From Lachnospiraceae bacterium (GTDB taxonomy: Bacteria; Bacillota; Clostridia; Lachnospirales; Lachnospiraceae): a stretch of DNA of 64,000 nt. The position numbers and the translations under genes are program-made. Under the pieces are notes generated by a model, which saw only the letters and a list, made by a program, of their open reading frames with translations, was not told the DNA's origin and did no database searches. Positions 6,806 to 24,841 of the stretch are shown one piece after another. The DNA is taken from positions 117,715 through 181,714 of the forward strand of contig JAFSIQ010000044.1 in assembly GCA_017439675.1 (NCBI GenBank), read 5' to 3'. Position 1 is the stretch's first letter. Every line of letters starts with the position of its first letter.

Positions 6806-7921
6806 ATGGAGCTTGGAGGATTTGGCTTTGAAAAGCCAGAGTTAATGAAAATTGCAGAGGAAATCTACAGCCTGCGACACAAACGACAAGGATTAGAATT
6901 GGAGCTTACCAGTGAGGAGTTTCATCAATCTTATATCCCACAAAGAAGAAATTTGGCAAAAGGGGAAGTGTTCCAACGGTTTGCACTTATCATACCAATT
7001 ACAGCTATGTTGATTGGTTGTGTTATTTATTCGCTATATTATGTTATTAACGGGGCTGAAACGAGACAAAGTGGAGCAGATGGAGTTATTTTGTTGTTTG
7101 CAGCACTATTTCTAGCATTTGGTGGTTATACGGATGTTTTATTAATCAAACGTCAGATATACTTGATGCGCATATTATCATGGAGTGATAATCCAGAGAT
7201 GGCTTATCGAAAAGGAATGGAAAATGGCGTTGTATCCATTCAGGGAGATGAACAGCATTCTAAGAACCGAATTGAGTCACTGAAAAGCTCTGTTGAGTCG
7301 ATTGATTTGCAGATTATTGAATTAGAGGAACGTCAAAAACGATTGATGGCAGAGAAACAGCGCAGTGAAGCATTTCTCAAGGAAAAGGGTGTTTTGTTTG
7401 ATGAAGACCCGAACAAGCCCCAAAAAAAGGGTGCGTTTTCACTTAAGGAGGATGCAACAGGTACATTAAATGCAGCAATGTTAGATGAGATGTATGCAGT
7501 AGAGGAAAAATATTTAAAGGGATGTATTAACGACCTAGAGGTTGAAATTCACATCCTTAACAAACAAATTACGCAGCTTGATGATGATTTTGAAGCAATC
7601 AAGCACAATATAATTATGACTGGCTGTGCATTTCTTTTTTTGTTAGCAATACAAGTATTTCTAAGTGGCGTTATTGGCTTTTTTACCGCTTTGTTTTTTG
7701 CAGTGGCTAGTACTGCGTATATCATTTATATGGAAACAAAATGTAAACGGACAGTGGCCTTATATTTGATTGAACATGATAATAATCTTATTAAGGAATA
7801 TGCATTTTGTCACAATTTAGAGCCGATGCACAGAAAACGTTCAGAGATATTAGAACATATTGAGATATACAAACGTGAGCTGGCAGATATTAAACTGAAA
7901 CGCGAGAGGATTGTGTTTTAA
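6806..7921 (+). CDS. coiled-coil membrane protein of unknown function
   Basis: Not a family I recognise. Two ATGs lie at 6800 and 6806, and AGGAG at 6793-6797 suits the second, giving 371 residues. There are two pairs of hydrophobic segments: about residues 61-82 (LIIPITAMLIGCVIYSLYYV) with 93-110, and about 274-312. Between them runs a long charged coiled coil (about 145-260) rich in Glu, Lys and Gln. A second helical tail follows the last membrane pair. It starts 14 bp after trmD and is probably cotranscribed, although trmD and rplS are usually adjacent in Firmicutes, so it looks like an insertion into the cluster. A structural or septum/envelope role is possible but unsupported. Confidence 0.7.
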   Translation: MELGGFGFEKPELMKIAEEIYSLRHKRQGLELELTSEEFHQSYIPQRRNLAKGEVFQRFALIIPITAMLIGCVIYSLYYVINGAETRQSGADGVILLFAALFLAFGGYTDVLLIKRQIYLMRILSWSDNPEMAYRKGMENGVVSIQGDEQHSKNRIESLKSSVESIDLQIIELEERQKRLMAEKQRSEAFLKEKGVLFDEDPNKPQKKGAFSLKEDATGTLNAAMLDEMYAVEEKYLKGCINDLEVEIHILNKQITQLDDDFEAIKHNIIMTGCAFLFLLAIQVFLSGVIGFFTALFFAVASTAYIIYMETKCKRTVALYLIEHDNNLIKEYAFCHNLEPMHRKRSEILEHIEIYKRELADIKLKRERIVF

Positions 7922-7939
7922 AAATATGCGAAATAATGC

Positions 7940-7968
7940 TTGCATTTTATAGTTACTTATGGTAAATT
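7940..7968 (+). promoter_or_regulatory. probable promoter of rplS
   Basis: TTGCAT at 7940-7945, a 17-bp spacer and TAAATT at 7963-7968. Both boxes are imperfect (about 4-5 of 6 matches), but spacing is ideal. It would give a leader of about 110 nt before rplS. Confidence 0.45.
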
Positions 7969-7974
7969 TAATGA

Positions 7975-8086
7975 GTTGTGATTTCCCTTGGGAATTACAT
8001 AGATTAGGGATGGTCCTCTGCGAGTTATATGTAAAACGTCTGCGAGACAGTCTTGTAAGAACATCTTATATTTTAAGGAGGTCGTC
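7975..8086 (+). promoter_or_regulatory. structured 5' leader of rplS
   Basis: The 110-nt leader contains a small perfect hairpin (TTCCC-TT-GGGAA near 7982) and repeated CTGCGAG segments (8018 and 8040). Low-GC Gram-positive bacteria are known to have an L19 autoregulatory leader at this place. I could not match a consensus, so this is a position-based guess. Confidence 0.3.
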
Positions 8087-8434
8087 ATGAACGATATTAT
8101 TAAGAACATCGAAGCTGCTCAGTTAAAGGCTGAGGTTACAGACTTCAACGTAGGAGATACAGTTAAGGTATCTGCAAAGGTAAAAGAGGGTAACAGAGAA
8201 AGAATTCAGGTTTTCGAAGGTACCGTAATTAAGCGTCAGGGTGGAAGCAACAGAGAAACATTTACAGTTCGTAAGAACTCTAACGGTGTTGGTGTTGAGA
8301 AGACTTGGCCATTGCATTCTCCAATCGTAGAGAAGATTGAGGTTGTAAGACGTGGTAAGGCTAGACGTGCTAAGTTATATTACTTACGTGATAGAGTTGG
8401 TAAGGCAGCTAGAGTAAAAGAATTAGTAAAATAA
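8087..8434 (+). CDS. rplS: 50S ribosomal protein L19
   Basis: L19 lies at the 30S-50S interface. The 115 residues show the family signatures [47 protein letters not shown] and [23 protein letters not shown] strong AAGGAGG sits before the ATG at 8087. Its own probable promoter and a terminator directly downstream suggest that it can be transcribed as a single gene. Confidence 0.98.
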
Positions 8435-8439
8435 TCAGA

Positions 8440-8475
8440 AAGGCTGGAGTAAATATTACTCTAGCCTTTATTTCT
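8440..8475 (+). terminator. intrinsic terminator after rplS
   Basis: AAGGCTGGAGTAA and TTACTCTAGCCTT form a 13-bp stem with one G-U pair around a 3-nt ATA loop, followed by TATTTCT. It starts 5 bp after the rplS stop codon. Confidence 0.85.
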
Positions 8476-8596
8476 ATGAAAATTTGGAGTATAATAAGTA
8501 GTTGTTGATAAATGCAATATAATAATTGTACAACATTATTGGTATGGAAATCATTATAACAAAGAATGACAGGATACATTTTATCTCGGAGGGATT

Positions 8597-9181
8597 ATGA
8601 GGCGTCGTAGAAGATATCGAAGTAGTTACGATAGAGAAGAATTTGATATGAAAGATTTTATGGCTGAGGTAGGACGCTGGGCGTTATCAATACTAGTCGT
8701 GGTAATCTTAGCATACAGTATCGTTACTTTTGGTGTTCAATCCGTGACTATGATTGGACAAAGTATGGAACCAGCACTTTCAAATCAAGATGTTGTCTTG
8801 ATTGACAAACGCGCTTATACATTTAAAGACCCAGAGCGATATGATATCATTGCATTTAAGCTGAAGGAAGACACGGAATCTTATTTCAATATTAAAAGAA
8901 TTATCGCTTTGCCGGGCGAAACAATACAGATTAAAAACGGTCGAATTTTCATTAATGGGGAGGTTTTAAATGATATGCCATTTGAAGATTTGATTATGAC
9001 AGAAGGACTTGCTATTGATGAAGTTACGTTGGGTGAGGACGAATATTTCCTAATGGGTGATAATTGTAATAATAGCGAGGATTCCCGTTATGTCAATATT
9101 GGTAATATTTCGGAGAAAGAGATTAGCGGAAAGGTATTCTTCCGTATTTCCCCGAGAGATTCCTTTGGAACAGTAGAATAA
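8597..9181 (+). CDS. lepB: signal peptidase I (first copy)
   Basis: Type I signal peptidase, which cuts signal peptides from Sec-exported proteins on the outer face of the membrane. The 194 residues start with an arginine-rich cytoplasmic tail (MRRRRRYRSSYDR), then a single membrane anchor at about 30-48. The catalytic serine is in GQSMEP near residue 56, and the lysine is in NIKRIIALPGE near residue 98. The C-terminal box MGDNCNNSEDSR matches the family. CGGAGG precedes the ATG. A TATAAT at 8490-8495 may be its -10 box. It is separated from a second lepB (10076) only by rbgA. Confidence 0.95.
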   Translation: MRRRRRYRSSYDREEFDMKDFMAEVGRWALSILVVVILAYSIVTFGVQSVTMIGQSMEPALSNQDVVLIDKRAYTFKDPERYDIIAFKLKEDTESYFNIKRIIALPGETIQIKNGRIFINGEVLNDMPFEDLIMTEGLAIDEVTLGEDEYFLMGDNCNNSEDSRYVNIGNISEKEISGKVFFRISPRDSFGTVE

Positions 9182-9221
9182 GAAGGAGGATGCATTGTAA
9201 TCGGTACAATGCAGATTAGAG

Positions 9222-10070
9222 ATGAATATACAGTGGTATCCTGGTCATATGACGAAAGCAAAACGTATGATGCAGGAAGATATTAAGTTAATTGATATTG
9301 TCATTGAATTATTGGATGCGAGAGTTCCGATTAGTAGTCGGAATCCTGATATTGATACACTGGCACAGAATAAGTTTCGTCTTGTATTGCTGAACAAATG
9401 TGATTTGGCAGATGAAGATGTGAATACACAATGGGAAGCTTATTTTAAGGAAAAGGGGACTATGGTGGTAACCATCAATGCCCGTAGTGGACAGGGAATG
9501 AAATTGATTACATCCAAGGTTCAGGAAGCTTGCAAGGAAAAAATCGAGCGCGACCGGAAACGTGGAATTATGAACAGACCGATTCGTGCTATGATAGTGG
9601 GAATTCCGAATGTGGGGAAATCCACATTTATTAATTCCTATGCAAAGAAAGCCTGTACCAAGGTGGGTAATAAACCGGGAGTAACTAAGGGAAAGCAGTG
9701 GATTAAGATTAACAAAAATGTAGAGCTTTTAGATACCCCTGGAATTTTATGGCCGAAGTTTGAGGACCAGATGGTGGGAGAACATTTGGCTTTTATCGGC
9801 TCGATTAACGATGAGATTTTGCAAAAGACAGAACTTGCATGCGACCTAATTTCTTTTATGGTGAAAGAGTATCCAGGTGTTTTAAAGGAGCGTTATCAGA
9901 TTGAGGAGACAGATGGTAGTGCTACTATTTTAGAAGGTATTGCCCGGAATAGAGGTTGTCTTTTGAAAGGGAATGAATTGAACTATGAAAAGGCTGCAAT
10001 TATTTTACTAGACGAATTCCGCAATGGTAAGCTAGGGCGGATTTCACTAGAAAAACCAGAAAAGGAGTAA
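9222..10070 (+). CDS. rbgA: ribosome biogenesis GTPase RbgA (YlqF)
   Basis: RbgA is a circularly permuted GTPase needed for late assembly of the 50S subunit. The motif order is permuted as expected: NKCDLAD (G4) near residue 66, then IVGIPNVGKSTFIN (G1) near 125 and LLDTPGILWPKF (G3) near 173. The N-terminus IQWYPGHMTKAKR is characteristic, and the 282-residue length is normal. The ATG at 9222 lies 40 bp after lepB. There is no near-perfect SD, but AGAT-rich sequence precedes it. Six bp separate it from the second lepB, so the three genes form one unit. Confidence 0.96.
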   Translation: MNIQWYPGHMTKAKRMMQEDIKLIDIVIELLDARVPISSRNPDIDTLAQNKFRLVLLNKCDLADEDVNTQWEAYFKEKGTMVVTINARSGQGMKLITSKVQEACKEKIERDRKRGIMNRPIRAMIVGIPNVGKSTFINSYAKKACTKVGNKPGVTKGKQWIKINKNVELLDTPGILWPKFEDQMVGEHLAFIGSINDEILQKTELACDLISFMVKEYPGVLKERYQIEETDGSATILEGIARNRGCLLKGNELNYEKAAIILLDEFRNGKLGRISLEKPEKE

Positions 10071-10075
10071 GGATA

Positions 10076-10639
10076 ATGGCAAAGAAAAATGAACCAACAA
10101 AGGAAATTAATTGGGTAAAAGAAATAATTGAAATGGTTATCTATATTGCATTTGTTTTATTGGCAGTTTGGTTGATCATAACGTATGTAGGTCAGAGAAC
10201 CGAGGTGAGTGGCGATTCCATGTATAATACGTTGGAAGATGGTGATAACCTTTGGATTGATAAACTATCCTATAAGTTTAATGAGCCAGAACGATTCGAT
10301 ATTGTAGTATTTCCGTTTCATGGTAGTGAAGTTTTCTACATAAAAAGAATTATTGGACTGCCGGGTGAGACAGTTCGTATTGATGAGGATGGTAACATTT
10401 ATATTGACGGAGAGATATTGGAGGAAAACTATGGTTATGAGACCATTTCGCCTAGTATGATAGGACGAGCCGATGAAGAGATTAAGCTTGGTGCAGATGA
10501 ATACTTTGTAATGGGTGATAATCGTAATGACAGTAAGGATTCCCGAACGGAAGAGGTAGGTAACATTCACTTAGATGAGTTAGAGGGAAAGGTTGCGCTT
10601 CGCATATGGCCATTTAATAAGTTTGGAAAAGTGGAATAA
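10076..10639 (+). CDS. lepB: signal peptidase I (second copy)
   Basis: A second type I signal peptidase of 187 residues. It has a short cytoplasmic N-terminus, one membrane anchor (about 18-39), the catalytic serine in SGDSMYNTL, the lysine in YIKRIIGLPGE and the conserved MGDNRNDSKDSR box. It differs from the first copy in its N-terminal tail, which lacks the arginine cluster, and in much of the substrate-binding region, so it is an old paralogue and not a recent duplicate. Multiple SPases with overlapping substrates are common in Firmicutes. It overlaps the rbgA unit and is ended by a strong terminator. Confidence 0.95.
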   Translation: MAKKNEPTKEINWVKEIIEMVIYIAFVLLAVWLIITYVGQRTEVSGDSMYNTLEDGDNLWIDKLSYKFNEPERFDIVVFPFHGSEVFYIKRIIGLPGETVRIDEDGNIYIDGEILEENYGYETISPSMIGRADEEIKLGADEYFVMGDNRNDSKDSRTEEVGNIHLDELEGKVALRIWPFNKFGKVE

Positions 10640-10772: not shown

Positions 10773-11525
10773 ATGGGTATATCGGAAATTAAGAATATGT
10801 TAAAGGAAGCTAGCATTGAAGAGTTACGAGAGTTGCTTCCTCAATTTGAATCAGATGAGAGAGCTGGAGTGGTAAAGCTTTTGGAGAGTGCAAGAAAACG
10901 AATCGCCGCATTTGAAACAGAGGTGGAACGAACCTATGCTATGAAGGAATATGAACGAAAATACGAAAATTGCCGATATATATGTGGAATAGATGAAGTG
11001 GGTCGTGGACCTTTGGCTGGACCCGTAGTGGCAGCGGCCGTTGTTTTGCCAAAGGATGTTGACATCTATTATCTCAATGATTCTAAGCAGTTATCTGCGA
11101 AGAAACGAGAGGAATTGTATGACGAGATTATGGAAAAAGCGGTTGCAGTAGGTGTGGGATTTTCGGATGAGAAATGTATTGACGAGATTAACATTTTACA
11201 GGCAAATTACGTGGCAATGAGAGATGCAATTTCTAAGCTTTCGGTGAAACCGGATATACTATTAAATGATGCAGTTACAATTCCTGGTGTGGAAATCCCA
11301 CAGGAATCCATTATTAAAGGGGATACCAAGAGTGTTTCCATTGCAGCAGCCAGTATTATTGCAAAAGTAACGCGTGACCGTTTTATGGTAGAGATTTCAG
11401 AAAAATATCCGGAGTATGATTTTGCTAGCAATAAAGGTTATGGAAGTCCAAAACACCTTGCAGCACTGAAGGAAATCGGACCATGTGAAATACACAGACG
11501 TAGTTTTATTGGAAACCTGATATAA
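10773..11525 (+). CDS. rnhB: ribonuclease HII
   Basis: RNase HII removes RNA from RNA-DNA hybrids and single ribonucleotides from DNA. The catalytic core is clear: CGIDEVGRGPLAGPVVAA carries the first Asp-Glu pair (near residues 74-75), the next acid is in LLNDAV, and IAAASIIAKVTRDRFM is the conserved helix. An N-terminal helical domain of about 65 residues (ISEIKNMLKEASIEELRELL) is typical of Gram-positive enzymes. The frame is open from 10710, but this domain starts naturally at the ATG at 10773, where a weak AGG-containing site precedes it. The rbgA-rnhB order matches Bacillus. Confidence 0.95.
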   Translation: MGISEIKNMLKEASIEELRELLPQFESDERAGVVKLLESARKRIAAFETEVERTYAMKEYERKYENCRYICGIDEVGRGPLAGPVVAAAVVLPKDVDIYYLNDSKQLSAKKREELYDEIMEKAVAVGVGFSDEKCIDEINILQANYVAMRDAISKLSVKPDILLNDAVTIPGVEIPQESIIKGDTKSVSIAAASIIAKVTRDRFMVEISEKYPEYDFASNKGYGSPKHLAALKEIGPCEIHRRSFIGNLI

Positions 11526-18617: not shown

Positions 18618-18693
18618 GCTAGCAAACAAAGGTTGTAAATGTAACAGGAATCGGATAAAATAAAGTTAATTGTAAATGGATAGCGAGGTGAGA

Positions 18694-20400
18694 ATGTTGG
18701 GAAGAACCGTAGGAATTGGAATACAAGATTTTGATAAGATTATTGAAGGAAATTACTTCTATGTGGACAAAACTTCTTTCATTAAAGAATGGTGGGAGAA
18801 CGGAGATGATGTAACACTAATTACTCGTCCCCGTCGTTTTGGTAAAACCTTGAATATGAGTATGTTAAACCGATTCTTTTCTCTTGATTTTGCAGGAAAA
18901 GGAGAGATATTTGAAGGCCTTTCTATCTGGGAAGAGGAGAAATACAGAAATCTACAGGGGACTTATCCAGTAATTAACCTTTCCTTTGCTAATGTGAAGG
19001 AAAATAGTTTTGAGGCTACGAGAGAGAAGCTTTATCAATCCATCGTAAGTCAATATAGTAAATACAGTTTTTTGCTGACAAGTGATGTGCTAACAGATAT
19101 TGACAAAGACTTTTTTAGACGTATCTCTATGGATATGAAAGAAACCGATGCGACTTCGGCATTACACAATTTGTCCGATTATTTGCATCGATACTATAAG
19201 CAAAAAGTTATCATCCTTTTGGATGAATACGATACCCCGATGCAGGAAGCCTATGTGAATGGATTCTGGGATGATTTGGTTGCATTTACGAGAAGTATGT
19301 TCAATGCCACATTTAAGACAAACCCGCATCTTGCAAGAGGCGTTATGACTGGAATTACCAGAGTGAGCAAGGAGTCCATATTTTCAGATTTGAATAACCT
19401 TGAGGTGGTTACTACAACTTCCGATAAATACGCAACGGCTTTTGGATTTACAGAGGAAGAAGTGTTTGCAGGACTAGACGAGTGCGAACTTAGTTCAGAA
19501 AAAGACAAAGTAAAAGAATGGTATGATGGATTCATCTTTGGAAGTCATGCAGACATCTATAATCCATGGTCCATATTGAACTTCTTGGATAAAAGGAATT
19601 ATACCACCTATTGGGCGAACACCAGCTCCAATAGTCTGGTTGGAAAGCTCATCCGGGAAGGAAATGGGGAAATCAAGGTACAGTTTGAAGAATTGTTACA
19701 GGGAAAGATTCTGCGCGTCCCAGTGGATGAACAAATCGTATACAACCAGTTAGACGATAATGAGAATGCCATCTGGAGTCTGTTGCTCGCCAGTGGATAT
19801 TTGAAGGTATTGTCTCGTGACGACATGAGTGCTTCGGAAGATGGTGAAGAGGCTTGTTATGAGCTTGCGCTTACGAATCTTGAAGTAAGAAGGATGTTCA
19901 AAGATATGGTAAGGTCTTGGTTTCGAAAGACGAACGCAGATTACAATGCATTTATTAAGGCAATGTTATTGCAGGATGTGGATGCTATGAATGAATATAT
20001 GAGCCAGATGAGCCTGGAATTGTTTAGTAGCTTTGACACAGGAAAGAGAGCATCAACAAAAGCACAACCGGAGCGGTTTTATCACGGCTTTGTATTAGGG
20101 TTGATGGTGGATTTACAACGGGATTATACGGTGACCTCCAACCGTGAAAGTGGCTTTGGCAGATATGATGTAATGCTTGAGCCGAAGACCCCAGAAAAGA
20201 ATCCTGCAGTCATTATTGAATTCAAGGTGCTGAATGTAAGAAGAGAGACTTCCTTGGAAGAAACTGCGCAAGCAGCGTTAGCCCAGATAGAAGAAAAGCA
20301 ATATGCAACAGCACTTCTTGCAAAGGGTGTACCAGAAGATAAGATATATAAGTATGGCTTTGCCTTTGAGGGAAAGAATGTGTTAATCGAACAAGGATAA
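18694..20400 (+). CDS. AAA-ATPase-like / PD-(D/E)XK nuclease-like protein
   Basis: A 568-residue member of the AAA-ATPase_like plus PDDEXK_9 family (also called DUF1703), abundant in Lachnospiraceae and Bacteroidetes and often present in many copies per genome. The N-terminal region has a signature FYVDKTSFIKEW and the P-loop TRPRRFGKTLNMSML (near residue 49). Walker B reads VIILLDEYDTPM. The C-terminal region has nuclease-like elements RYDVMLEP and IIEFKV, the D and E-x-K of a PD-(D/E)XK fold. GAGGTGAGA precedes the ATG at 18694; the ATG at 18676 has no site. It lies between near-identical terminators in a cluster whose conserved order lacks it. Its biological role is unknown; defence or mobile-element roles are speculative. 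Confidence 0.85.
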   Translation: MLGRTVGIGIQDFDKIIEGNYFYVDKTSFIKEWWENGDDVTLITRPRRFGKTLNMSMLNRFFSLDFAGKGEIFEGLSIWEEEKYRNLQGTYPVINLSFANVKENSFEATREKLYQSIVSQYSKYSFLLTSDVLTDIDKDFFRRISMDMKETDATSALHNLSDYLHRYYKQKVIILLDEYDTPMQEAYVNGFWDDLVAFTRSMFNATFKTNPHLARGVMTGITRVSKESIFSDLNNLEVVTTTSDKYATAFGFTEEEVFAGLDECELSSEKDKVKEWYDGFIFGSHADIYNPWSILNFLDKRNYTTYWANTSSNSLVGKLIREGNGEIKVQFEELLQGKILRVPVDEQIVYNQLDDNENAIWSLLLASGYLKVLSRDDMSASEDGEEACYELALTNLEVRRMFKDMVRSWFRKTNADYNAFIKAMLLQDVDAMNEYMSQMSLELFSSFDTGKRASTKAQPERFYHGFVLGLMVDLQRDYTVTSNRESGFGRYDVMLEPKTPEKNPAVIIEFKVLNVRRETSLEETAQAALAQIEEKQYATALLAKGVPEDKIYKYGFAFEGKNVLIEQG

Positions 20401-20656: not shown

Positions 20657-23600
20657 ATGAACAAAGTTAAGAAACAGGGAAAACGCATGTTAAGCCTCTT
20701 GCTTTGCACTGCATTAGCAATGTCAGGACTGATGGTTCCGACAAAGCAGGTTCGTGCAGTGGAAACACAGGCAGAAGAAAACACAGGCAACACAAAAACC
20801 ATCGCAGGACTTGGTACAAGTGTGATAGCTAACCCGACAGACCCCGGTGATGATACAACAAAAGCATGGGCAGGAAGCTATGTGTATTATGGAAATTATG
20901 ACGCAAACGGTGACGGTACAGCAGAGCCTGTAAAATATCGTGTACTGGATGCAAGTACAACAGATTTCAGTGCAGATGGAACGACACAGACCATGTTCCT
21001 TGATTGTGACAGTATTCTGTACTATCAAAAATTTGATAACGATGGTACTGCCAATGAAGCTGATAAAAAAGCAAACGACTGGTCAATCAGTGACGTGAAA
21101 AGCAGTTTGAATGGAGACGGCTTTTTGAATAAAGAGGGAGTGTTTACCACTGCCGAAAAGAATGCTATCGCCGCAAGCAACGTGGATAGCCATCCATTGA
21201 CAACAGATAGTGAAACGGGAGTCAATGTGGCAAGCTGGACGCAAGGTGCTTTTGTAAATTATGTGGCATTAGACGGAGAGCAAATCTTTTTACTGGATGC
21301 AGAAGATGTGTCCAACGGAGCATACGGATATAGCATGCCGGATGCTGGTTGCGAAAACCGCAAGAAGACAGGCAGCTCTGCTGCCTCTTGTTGGCTCCGG
21401 TCTGCCAACTATCTTTATGGTTACAACGCCGGCTGTGTCTACGACGGCGGCATCAACAACTTCACTGTCTACGGCGATTACCCCGGTGTGAGTCCCGCTT
21501 TGAATTTGAATCTGTCATCTGTCATCTTCTCATCTGTCATCTCTGGAACTGCCGGGGAGACAGGCGCAGAGTATAAGCTGACACTGTTAGACAGTGACAT
21601 GACCATTGCGGCAAATTCAGATGCAACAAGAAATGGTAAAACAGTAACCGTTCCATATAGTATCAGTGGAAATAATAGTGGCAATGCCACACAGGTTTCC
21701 GTGTTAGTTCTGGATAAGGAATACACAGCAGGTAATACCAATGGAGCAACTGTTTTAGATTATCAGAAATTAAATGTAGATAGTTTTTCTGCAAGCGGAA
21801 CAGGAACCTATACCCTTCCGGATTCTTTGGCAAATGCGAGAATGGGGCTGGATTATTATGCATACATCGTAGCTGAGGATATCAATGGAGAAAAGGAAAC
21901 GGACTACGCAAGTACTCCGGTTGCCATTCCTTGGGCGGTACCGGTAGCAAAGCAGATGAACTTTGGCACACAGGGTATCATCGACCCGGCAGTACCAAAC
22001 AGCGCCAGTGACGCATGGAAAGGCTGCTATGTGTACTATGGAAATTATGACGCAGGTAATGATGGGACAGCAGAGCCTGTAAAATATCGTGTACTGGATG
22101 CAAGTACCACAGATTACAGTGCAGATGGAACGACACAGACGATGTTCCTTGATTGTGACAGTATTCTGTACTATACGCCATTTGATGGGGAAGAACCATA
22201 TAGCAATGTATGGAAAGATAGTCCGATTTATACAAGTCTCAATGGAGACGGCTTTTTGAATAAAGACGGAGTGTTTACCACTACCGAAAAGAATGCCATT
22301 GCAGCAAGTACAGTGGCTAGCCATGCATTGACAACGGATAGTGCAACGGGAGTCAATGTGGCAAGCTGGACGCAAGATGCTTTTGTAAATTATGTGGCAT
22401 TAGACGGAGAGCAAATCTTTTTACTGGATGCAGAAGATGTGTCCAACGGAGCATACGGATATAGCATGAAGGATAGTGGTTGTGAAAACCGCAAGAAGAC
22501 AGGCAGCTCTGTTGCCTATTGGTGGCTTCGGTCTGCCGACAGTTCTTATGGTAACCACGCCGGCTCTGTCCGCGGCGACGGCCACATCGACAACGACCGT
22601 GTCGACTACATTTACCCCGGTGTGAGTCCCGCTTTGAATTTGAATCTGTCATCTGTCCTCTTCTCATCTGCGAGCGCAGTGAGCAAATCTTCTGCTCTTA
22701 CAAGTGGCAGTGCTGAGATTGGTACGACATCGAATACCCAGTGGAAGCTGACATTGAAAGATGATGCGAAATCAGTAAAACTTACAGAGGGAAGAAGCGT
22801 AACGAAAGCAAGTGATGGAACCACCATAACCGTGCCATATACATACACAGACAAGGAAAATGTAACAGACAGTGAGAAAGTAAACCAGATTTCCGTAATG
22901 ATTACGGACAAAGCTTATGATGCAGAAAAAGCAGCAAATGCACAGGAAGCACAGATTCTGTATTACGGTGCATTGCAGAATATAAAGAATGCAGAAGGAA
23001 CAGCTAGTACGGTAGCAGAGTCTTCCACCGGAACCTTTGCACTTCCAAGTGGTTTGACAGGAACTTTGGGAACAGATTACCACATCTATCTCTTGGCAGA
23101 GCATGTAAATGCAGACAACTCTACGGATTATGCAAGTGAACCGAAAGAAGTAACTGCTATTTTGGATGAGGTAGATACGGTCACCGTGCCAAGTATTGAT
23201 ACACCGATAGCAGAACAGCCTTTTGAGGGAGAAATAACCATATCATCCACTGGTGTAGCAGAAAAAGCAACACTTGCATGGAAAAAGAATGATACAGAAG
23301 CAACCGGCAATGCAGAGTGGAAAACCACCTATCAGGCATATGTGACATTGACAGCAGCGGATGGATATGCATTTACCAATACCACAGGAGCAACCTTGAA
23401 TGGACAGCCTGTGGACACAGAAAATATCACATTGAACAAGGACGGAACACTTACCATTGCCTGTGGAGAATATACGACAGCAACCAGAAAGACGGAAAGT
23501 GCAGCCGCACCGGAAGTACCAACACAATTTGTGAATTATTACACGGCAGAAAATGTGCTTTCTGCTGATGAATTGAAAGTACCTGCTAAGGTAACCTTGG

Positions 23601-24841
23601 AAGGAACAACACAGCCAAATCCGGAAGAGATGGAAGTGGAATGGAGCATTGCCAATGAAGGCGGTGCGGCATACGATGCCACTCCGACAGCGACCAATAC
23701 CTTCAAATGGACAGTAAAAGAGTCTGAGTATGTAGACTATGATTTGAATGGCGTAACGATGGAAGGAACGGTTACCATTCGGAATAAGAGATATGTACCG
23801 GAGGTAACTTCGGTTCCAACAGTGGCAGAGAGGGTATATCATCCGACGAAAGTGTTAACGGATACCGATTTGACAGGTGGCGAGGTAAAAGACAAAGACG
23901 GCACTGCGCTTGCAGGAGCCTGGAGTTGGAAAAAACAGAATGTAATTCCTTCTGTAGCAGACAGCGAGAAGACACAATATGAAATCACATTTACACCGAA
24001 AGATGCTGAACATTACGAGCCGATTACGACAGAGATTACTGTTAAGGTTACCAAAGCAACTCCTGTGATGGTAGAAAAGCCTTCTGCGGCAAATATTACT
24101 AGTGGTAACGCTTTGGCAAGTTCAGTATTATCTGGTGGAAAGGTACAGTATGGAGATTCTGATACAACAATGGTTGCAGGAACTTGGAGTTGGAAGGATG
24201 CCACAATCAAGCCTTCTACAGCAGACAGTGGCGTAACAGAGTACGATGTGGTGTTTGTGCCGACAGATGCAGTGAACTACAATTCGGTTGAAACAAAGAT
24301 TACAGTGCTCCTTAGTACACCAACCACTGGAACGATAGATACATCCGATGATGGCAAAGCAACCTATAAGGTAACAACGGCTGACCTTACAAACGGAACC
24401 GTAACCTACGTTGCACCAACCAATAAGAAAGCAACTACCGTTACGATTCCAGATACAGTTGTGATGGATGGTGTGACCTATAAGGTAACTTCTGTTGAAA
24501 AGAAAGCATTTAAGAACAATAAGAAAATCAAGAAGGTAACCATTGGAAAGAATGTAAAGACCATTGGTAAGGAAGCATTCTCAGGATGTAAGAAAATGAC
24601 TTCCATAACTATCGGAAAGAACGTGAGCAAGATTGATTCCAAAGCCTTCTACGGATGTAGCAAGTTAAAAACGCTTACCATTAAGTCAAGTAAGCTGACC
24701 ACAAAGAAGATTGGAAGTAAAGCATTTTCAAAGACATCAAAGAGTATGACTGTGAAAGTACCGAAGAAGAAATTCAAGACATACAAGTCCATGCTTATTA
24801 AACGTGGTGTGAATAAGAAGGCTAGATTCAAAAAGAGCTAA
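20657..24841 (+). CDS. large secreted surface protein with two DUF6273-like domains and BspA-like repeats
   Basis: A 1394-residue secreted protein. A signal peptide occupies about residues 1-35 (KQGKRMLSLLLCTALAMSGL). Two homologous domains lie at about 70-290 and 453-670, each starting YVYYGNYDA and VKYRVLDAS, passing WSI/LNGDGFLNK, FLLDAEDVSNGAYGYS and ending WLRSA...YPGVSPALNL. They match the DUF6273/formylglycine-enzyme-like C-type-lectin fold. A beta-rich stretch with Ig-like repeats follows (700-1250), then BspA-type leucine-rich repeats (about 1270-1370: VEKKAFKNNKKIKKVTIG) and a very basic tail. There is no LPXTG or membrane anchor. AAGGAGGAG precedes the ATG. Within each domain, residues 251-274 and 628-652 look like hypervariable patches (see findings). 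Attachment or ligand binding is inferred. Confidence 0.9.
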   Translation: MNKVKKQGKRMLSLLLCTALAMSGLMVPTKQVRAVETQAEENTGNTKTIAGLGTSVIANPTDPGDDTTKAWAGSYVYYGNYDANGDGTAEPVKYRVLDASTTDFSADGTTQTMFLDCDSILYYQKFDNDGTANEADKKANDWSISDVKSSLNGDGFLNKEGVFTTAEKNAIAASNVDSHPLTTDSETGVNVASWTQGAFVNYVALDGEQIFLLDAEDVSNGAYGYSMPDAGCENRKKTGSSAASCWLRSANYLYGYNAGCVYDGGINNFTVYGDYPGVSPALNLNLSSVIFSSVISGTAGETGAEYKLTLLDSDMTIAANSDATRNGKTVTVPYSISGNNSGNATQVSVLVLDKEYTAGNTNGATVLDYQKLNVDSFSASGTGTYTLPDSLANARMGLDYYAYIVAEDINGEKETDYASTPVAIPWAVPVAKQMNFGTQGIIDPAVPNSASDAWKGCYVYYGNYDAGNDGTAEPVKYRVLDASTTDYSADGTTQTMFLDCDSILYYTPFDGEEPYSNVWKDSPIYTSLNGDGFLNKDGVFTTTEKNAIAASTVASHALTTDSATGVNVASWTQDAFVNYVALDGEQIFLLDAEDVSNGAYGYSMKDSGCENRKKTGSSVAYWWLRSADSSYGNHAGSVRGDGHIDNDRVDYIYPGVSPALNLNLSSVLFSSASAVSKSSALTSGSAEIGTTSNTQWKLTLKDDAKSVKLTEGRSVTKASDGTTITVPYTYTDKENVTDSEKVNQISVMITDKAYDAEKAANAQEAQILYYGALQNIKNAEGTASTVAESSTGTFALPSGLTGTLGTDYHIYLLAEHVNADNSTDYASEPKEVTAILDEVDTVTVPSIDTPIAEQPFEGEITISSTGVAEKATLAWKKNDTEATGNAEWKTTYQAYVTLTAADGYAFTNTTGATLNGQPVDTENITLNKDGTLTIACGEYTTATRKTESAAAPEVPTQFVNYYTAENVLSADELKVPAKVTLEGTTQPNPEEMEVEWSIANEGGAAYDATPTATNTFKWTVKESEYVDYDLNGVTMEGTVTIRNKRYVPEVTSVPTVAERVYHPTKVLTDTDLTGGEVKDKDGTALAGAWSWKKQNVIPSVADSEKTQYEITFTPKDAEHYEPITTEITVKVTKATPVMVEKPSAANITSGNALASSVLSGGKVQYGDSDTTMVAGTWSWKDATIKPSTADSGVTEYDVVFVPTDAVNYNSVETKITVLLSTPTTGTIDTSDDGKATYKVTTADLTNGTVTYVAPTNKKATTVTIPDTVVMDGVTYKVTSVEKKAFKNNKKIKKVTIGKNVKTIGKEAFSGCKKMTSITIGKNVSKIDSKAFYGCSKLKTLTIKSSKLTTKKIGSKAFSKTSKSMTVKVPKKKFKTYKSMLIKRGVNKKARFKKS
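21407..21478 (+). other. candidate DGR variable region 1
   Basis: The 24 codons coding residues 251-274 of the surface protein. They are GC-rich and made almost wholly of NNC and NNT codons, unlike the flanking NNA/NNG-rich sequence. Compared with the second copy at 22538, differences fall in bases 1 and 2 only at variable codons, for example TAC/AAC, TTC/GAC, ACT/CGT. This is what adenine mutagenesis of AAC/AAT template codons would leave. Confidence 0.65.
22538..22612 (+). other. candidate DGR variable region 2
   Basis: The 25 codons coding residues 628-652, at the same place in the second domain copy. One codon is extra compared with region 1. The third base agrees with region 1 at all fifteen variable codons I aligned, while bases 1 and 2 vary. 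Codons that are constant (GCC GGC, GTC, TAC CCC GGT GTG) lie between them. Confidence 0.65.

Follow-up and report, generated by a model that had tools for sequence, protein, structure and literature searches.

Probable variable regions of a diversity-generating retroelement in both DUF6273 domains of one Lachnospiraceae protein

DUF6273 is an established target of diversity-generating retroelements (DGRs) in phages, for which a C-type-lectin-like model has been put forward (PMC10743442, PMC11792537), and a C-type-lectin fold is stated for DUF6273-like domains (PMC10743442). The Faecalibacterium prophage proteins described in PMC11792537 carry the variable region (VR) at the C-terminus of DUF6273 and show A-directed changes, and the 'tentaclins' of PMC10743442 likewise have a variable region in DUF6273 with changes directed at adenines. 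Several VRs in one open reading frame (ORF) are described for 31 of the 271 multi-VR DGRs in PMC6642488. Three VRs are found in tandem FGE-sulfatase units of one ORF in Marichromatium purpuratum, a case for which the authors leave artefact or pseudogene open, and the DiGReF table has an entry for a Lachnospiraceae bacterium whose DGR has two VRs, without stating whether both lie in one protein (PMC3521204). Targets can also lie far from the enzyme that rewrites them, as reported for the remote variable proteins of cyanobacteria (PMC7517822) and for Pseudogulbenkiania, where a target is found more than 370 kb away and distal targets accompany a strongly mutated reverse transcriptase (RT) (PMC3521204). 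The survey approach in PMC8144416 would, by its own statement, not detect remote targets.

The DNA analysed here (the window) is a stretch of 64,000 nucleotides from the genome of a Lachnospiraceae bacterium that is 70% complete and distributed over 50 contigs. Its gene at 20657..24841 (+ strand) encodes a 1394-residue protein that is probably secreted, judging by eye from the N-terminus, and that consists of two DUF6273 domains, a long middle region and a C-terminal BspA-type LRR_5 region (residues 1276-1371; 24482..24769, + strand). Pfam recognizes DUF6273 in two stretches (8e-14) and LRR_5 at 4e-21; by Pfam and alignment, the approximate bounds of the two domain copies are 20870..21538 and 22019..22669 (both + strand). 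An earlier note on this DNA had called the two domains almost identical; two DUF6273 copies are indeed present, but their amino-acid identity of 76% falls short of that description. AlphaFold2 returned a mean pLDDT of 34 for the domain, and a PDB sequence search for it gave no match. In the 70%-complete genome, DUF6273 was found at this gene only. The gene is placed between gpsA together with an ATPase-like gene and spoIVA. The ATPase-like gene, of AAA-ATPase_like/PDDEXK_9 type, lies at 18676-20400 between gpsA and the target gene; this stretch is absent from the related locus L011, where 56 bases separate the end of the gpsA match from the match around the target.

At the C-terminal end of each DUF6273 domain, a domain known as a DGR target, codon alignment delimits a variable patch, VR1 at 21407..21478 and VR2 at 22538..22612 (both + strand). 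The fifteen variable codons with constant third base claimed in the earlier note were recovered as 14 differing aligned codons plus a one-codon gap (15 with the gap placement used there), and the 22 changed bases fall 13 times at position 1, nine times at position 2 and never at position 3. The upstream part of these two domains offers 168 aligned codons, of which 46 differ, with changes at the first (20), second (22) and third (30) codon positions. A third-base change is therefore present in 0/14 differing codons of the patch versus 30/46 upstream (Fisher p=1.7e-5); counted over all codons, third bases differ in 0/44 codons of patch and 3' flank versus 30/168 upstream (Fisher p=0.001). Moreover, every patch codon ends in C or T (27/27 in VR1 and 28/28 in VR2, constant codons included), compared with 350 of 476 codons (74%; range 10/27 to 25/29) in 17 other copies of the domain, a sum made by hand that leaves out patches with the pattern, two RT-linked copies and one near-duplicate. 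Just ahead of the patch, outside the variable region, some further codons differ (TCT/TAT, TGT/TGG, CTC/CTT), and in two of these the third base is affected; third-base changes start again directly before the patch, at 21389 and 21395.

A similar situation is present in some relatives. A scan of species genomes yielded six loci with a relative, five from Lachnospiraceae or Lachnoclostridium and one from Butyrivibrio. C/T-ending codons make up 28/28 of the patch in the second domains of both L009 and L010 and 29/30 in L011, and the constant codons of these patches are mostly as in the window; the pattern is absent from the first domain of L009 (22/28 C/T-ending) and from L012-L014. When four patches from three genomes were taken together (VR1 and VR2 of the window, that is win1 and win2, the second-domain patch L009b, and L011), alignment columns holding an A varied in 30/34 cases versus 86/209 upstream (p=1.7e-7), columns without A varied in 6/44 versus 41/295 (p=1), and constant columns were A in 4/42 versus 123/377 (p=0.001), the rows being related, so that the p-values are indicative. 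Columns holding G or T were also more variable in the patch (p=1e-4 and 6e-4, respectively) and C columns were not; columns without G (10/44 versus 63/341) or without T (14/46 versus 75/354) were near background, and those without C (24/46 versus 61/381) above it. Among the bases, adenine thus gives the strongest signal of patch variation, though not the only one, and the G and T signals would also be expected where A is replaced by other bases.

The third base is also kept in amino-acid-changing codons more often in the patch than upstream, with p=6e-4 for win1-win2, 0.04 for win1-L009b, 2e-4 for win2-L009b and 0.003 for win2-L011; the excess is not significant in two of the six pairs, win1-L011 (p=0.13) and L009b-L011 (p=0.55). 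In the DGR-like set, 3 of 26 codons vary at the third position, compared with 26/28 and 28/28 in two non-DGR control sets, which are saturated and from which an adenine preference is not assessable. As a separate observation, L009 and L010 share a near-identical island (7400-9700 in each) that holds the target gene and lies directly after a diverged guaA, and the two copies differ at 15 sites between 7400 and 9620, which speaks for a recent transfer of the target gene. Four of the differences lie inside the target gene, between 8654 and 9620, and three of these are located in the patch of the first domain, where L009 has A and L010 has G each time; they carry little weight, this copy being one without the C/T-ending pattern (22/28).

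The DNA downstream of the patches is conserved as well. After VR1 lies a conserved 3' block at 21485..21535 (+ strand; GGTGTGAGTCCCGCTTTGAAT...), which recurs with one base of difference after VR2 at 22619..22669 (+ strand); the sequence that comes after both window patches is GGTGTGAGTCCCGCTTTGAATTTGAATCTGTCATCTGTC. Codons that encode the same amino acid are identical to those of the RT-linked orthologue in G072, a genome from another genus of the family, more often in the block than upstream: 18/21 versus 35/69 for win1, 15/16 versus 31/73 for win2, 15/16 versus 33/72 for L009b and 18/22 versus 30/67 for L011 (p=1e-4 to 0.003). The pair G072-G344 behaves in the same way (13/16 versus 26/72, p=0.001). 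The test is not significant in the other 12 of 17 pairs, which comprise win1 with win2, L009a and L009b, where codons are alike throughout; win1 with G344 (14/18), G029 (12/17) and G287 (10/17); and G254b (twice), G128b, G431, L012 and G128b-G431, where the block is not or barely raised. A homing signal at the 3' end of a VR would be expected to look like this, and the block may represent an initiation-of-mutagenic-homing region, a role that we infer from this codon conservation. Most of the block is also present in the homologues L101 (G344) and L102 (G029), where no DGR RT was found in genomes that are 99-100% complete; both are further candidates for orphan variable regions.

As the earlier note had stated, no DGR-like RT was found within the 64-kb window. 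A DGR profile search of the 70%-complete genome also found none, nor was a template matching the patches found there, so that the whole-genome search for a DGR RT and an AAC/AAT template proposed in that note returned neither. A scan of the window, of 19.7 kb adjoining it and of the locus of the only RT seen in this genome gave, as the best alternatives to the patches, stretches with at least 24 non-adenine mismatches in 90-93 bases, whereas the G440 control was recovered with 0. Directly upstream of the window gene there is no RT remnant (best E 3.8). The relatives with the same patches (G060, G061, G062/G003) yielded no RT of any kind, G003 (L011) and G340 (L009) being about 90% complete. 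Phages, plasmids and viral contigs gave no match to the domain, and viral contigs none to the 21-base 3' block.

The RT of this genome is a UG26-type (DRT) enzyme at G000:C50:49420-50046 (L001:1105-2334, - strand). It was rejected as a DGR RT on the basis of its padloc scores (541.6 bits for UG26 versus 135.2 for the generic RT model), and its locus was discarded as a template source, since it holds no template-like stretch. By eye, G018, G029 and G064 contain similar-looking RTs. Of six RT loci in ten homologue genomes, the five that were viewed (all but L025) were also set aside, since they look by eye like group II intron or UG26-like proteins; tool classification covered the own-genome RT only.

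Real templates of the expected kind are found elsewhere in the family. A 138-nt template probe was deduced from the two patches by writing AAC or AAT wherever their codons vary, and it was run against 397 Lachnospiraceae family genomes, an even draw from a larger group, with two candidates scored per genome. It matched 18 of the 397 genomes at E<=1e-4, own genome included; several matches are template repeats (TRs), and others are variable regions or chance repeats. Seven template-like loci were scanned, and six of them (L029, L030, L032, L035, L039, L041) contain a TR-VR pair that, over the span scanned, differs at template adenines only; the scan of L028 found none, and L037 is a template-like match outside these seven. 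In L030 (= L089, in G440), TR and VR differ by 21 adenine mismatches and 0 others in 72 bases, and the cassette comprises a DUF6273 target, a bAvd-like protein (below the Pfam cut-off) and an RT with GNQTSQ and YMDD motifs. The corresponding RT motif is GSQVSQ in L035 and L041 and takes divergent forms in L032 and L039. The RT frame at L029:1744-2406 (G351:C10) lacks the middle of the enzyme by eye, only model positions 211-343 being matched; lying beside a clean TR-VR pair and a DUF6273-like target, it is perhaps another broken DGR. An RT profile built from five of these RTs matched 45 of the 397 family genomes at E<=1e-30, a count of individually unchecked matches. Scanning of 35 distinct loci, L029 and L138 being the same place, found a TR-VR pair in 25 and none in 10.

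Beside homologues of the window protein, RTs are present in various states of preservation. In G072, the start of the orthologue (57% identity over residues 5-433) overlaps the stop codon of an RT that is truncated at its front by the end of the contig. This fragment is recognized by the DGR profile at 8e-38, and its nearest RTs are those of L029 and L030 (49%); in the patch of the orthologue, 25/28 codons end in C or T. The rest of this RT and its template were searched for and not found. In G021, which belongs to the genus of the window, the gene for a secreted protein with two DUF6273 domains and fn3 is immediately preceded by an Avd-RT fusion ORF; this ORF has an Avd-like start (Pfam bAvd 3e-4, below the cut-off) and an RT part without about the first 120 model positions, and no template was found on its 3.8-kb contig. 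The two patches of this protein, with flank, differ in 4/44 third bases versus 83/145 upstream, and in 1/41 within a core that was picked by eye and that overlaps the upstream 145 by six unchanged codons. Repeated writing from one template would be expected to produce such a third-base pattern. The C/T rule fails here, with 19/28 C/T-ending codons in each patch, the exceptions being mostly constant codons.

A further member of the genus, G025, carries a frame-broken pseudogene of an RT C-terminus upstream of two tandem DUF6273 proteins (L168:900-7076), the first with LRR_5 by Pfam and the second LRR-like at its end by eye. Third bases differ freely between the patches and flanks of these two proteins (16/14/15), and the patches look decayed or not tied by one template. 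Across the 18 orthologue regions examined, a DGR RT was nearby in two, L089 (G440) and L090 (G072). A DGR of another kind is present in the same genus at G014:C15 (L167), with a clean TR-VR pair (TR at 10568, VR at 11228), an RT frame of 359 codons and adjoining ORFs that look like phage tail genes by eye.

Collectively, these data indicate, with a probability of roughly 0.86, that VR1 and VR2 are variable regions of a DGR, written from one template. The base pattern, the adenine-linked variation across genomes and the linkage of RT and target in relatives are direct observations; the A-to-N change is deduced from them, the template itself never having been seen. In such a scheme, an RNA template with AAC/AAT codons would be copied by an error-prone DGR RT misreading adenines, and the mutated cDNA would replace the C-terminal patch of both DUF6273 domains in one secreted protein, changing the likely binding surface of each. 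A single template would have served both copies, at a time when divergence of the two domains was already under way. The retrohoming steps, the binding of a ligand by the patch and the use of one template for both patches are inferred. Third bases show no decay between VR1 and VR2 (0/44), which makes the latest writing appear recent when set against the domain duplication. Thus, the part of the earlier note that proposed DGR-type variable regions is well supported, in view of the codon pattern, the adenine link, the RTs of G072 and G021 and the real templates in the family. Its further suggestion that the element works in trans or from a distant locus stays tentative: in the 70%-complete genome one UG26 RT and no template were found, and loss of the element fits as well.

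Two explanations depart from the writing of both patches in place. Ordinary domain duplication, followed by diversifying selection on surface residues and a codon bias for C/T endings, would dispense with a DGR altogether, and other DUF6273 copies are indeed rich in C/T endings (the 350/476 given above); selection on amino acids would not keep third bases as they are kept in the patch, however, and it would leave unexplained both the third-base contrast in G021 and the RTs beside homologues, so that we regard this account as very unlikely. Somewhat less improbable, and still unlikely, is that recombination with paralogues, or with transferred copies that had been diversified by a DGR elsewhere, imported one or both patches. 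The gene family does move, as seen from the island beside guaA in L009/L010 and the window copy at gpsA/spoIVA. However, DUF6273 was found in the own genome (70% complete) at the window gene only, an exchange between the two copies would have evened out the 14 differing codons as well, and third-base changes resume directly before the patch.

If the two patches were written by a DGR, as we favour, it may be asked where this element is. One answer, to which we give a little under an even chance, is that the DGR has been lost from the lineage and that the patches are frozen and kept by selection. A DGR RT was found in 0/4 genomes with the patch pattern (own, G060, G061, G062/G003), and the genus RTs that lie beside similar proteins are the truncated Avd-RT fusion of G021 and the C-terminal pseudogene of G025; against this, third bases have not decayed between VR1 and VR2, and the genomes are incomplete (70% for the own genome, about 90% for two relatives). 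The clean third bases of both patches and the missing 30% of the own genome are in turn what makes an active remote element possible, in which an intact Avd-TR-RT unit elsewhere in the genome, on a prophage or on a plasmid rewrites both patches. Remote targets in cyanobacteria (PMC7517822) and Pseudogulbenkiania (PMC3521204), as described there, and the family-wide matches of the DGR RT profile also speak for such a unit, to which we give a chance only slightly lower than to loss. Yet neither the own genome nor the relatives that share the patches yielded a DGR RT, and the searches of phages, plasmids and viral contigs for the domain, and of viral contigs for the 3' block, were negative. Because two members of the genus carry a broken RT and four genomes are blank, we lean slightly towards loss of the element over its continued activity at another site.

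In the prophage DUF6273 proteins and tentaclins, as in the window protein, it is DUF6273 that holds the variable region, located in the prophage proteins at the C-terminus of the domain, and their A-directed changes have a likely counterpart in the window patches; they are, as described, proteins of DGR-carrying phages (PMC11792537, PMC10743442), whereas the window protein appears to be cellular and secreted, has a BspA-type LRR tail and two patches, and is one for which no DGR RT was found. Two VRs in one protein, which the earlier note considered unusual, are indeed uncommon and nevertheless have precedents (PMC3521204, PMC6642488). As in Marichromatium, each VR of the window protein has its own tandem domain, although of another domain family (PMC3521204), and the multi-VR DGRs of both compilations were, on their accounts, identified by RT and TR, neither of which was found for the window patches. 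The remote variable proteins of cyanobacteria (PMC7517822) and the Pseudogulbenkiania targets (PMC3521204) resemble the window gene in having the VR away from a working RT, and remnants suggest loss of a local RT there as in the relatives of the window; a matching TR is described in the same genome in those cases, whereas none was found in the window genome. The DGR of G440 (L030/L089), from the same family, has a DUF6273 target with the same patch codon order, but it writes a single patch from a cassette in cis, whereas the window protein has two patches and no cassette was found. A search of the open literature, outside which most subscription papers fall, returned no description of a secreted DUF6273-LRR protein of cellular origin that carries two VRs.

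Each element of the case has precedents, and the twist is recognition without a template. These results suggest that DGR targets can be recognized by comparing tandem patches and relatives, which matters because surveys that need a VR next to an RT miss such genes. It is conceivable, if rather unlikely on present evidence, that a family of mobile secreted proteins of Lachnospiraceae with tandem DGR-written binding patches outlives its retroelement, the RT/template unit being repeatedly deleted (as fused Avd-RT, pseudogene or absence) and the patches and homing block staying behind, rewritable by a shared DGR that visits in trans. With RTs that are cut off, fused, broken or absent beside the same kind of protein, this genus and family make it testable how a hypermutation system is lost and what then becomes of its targets.
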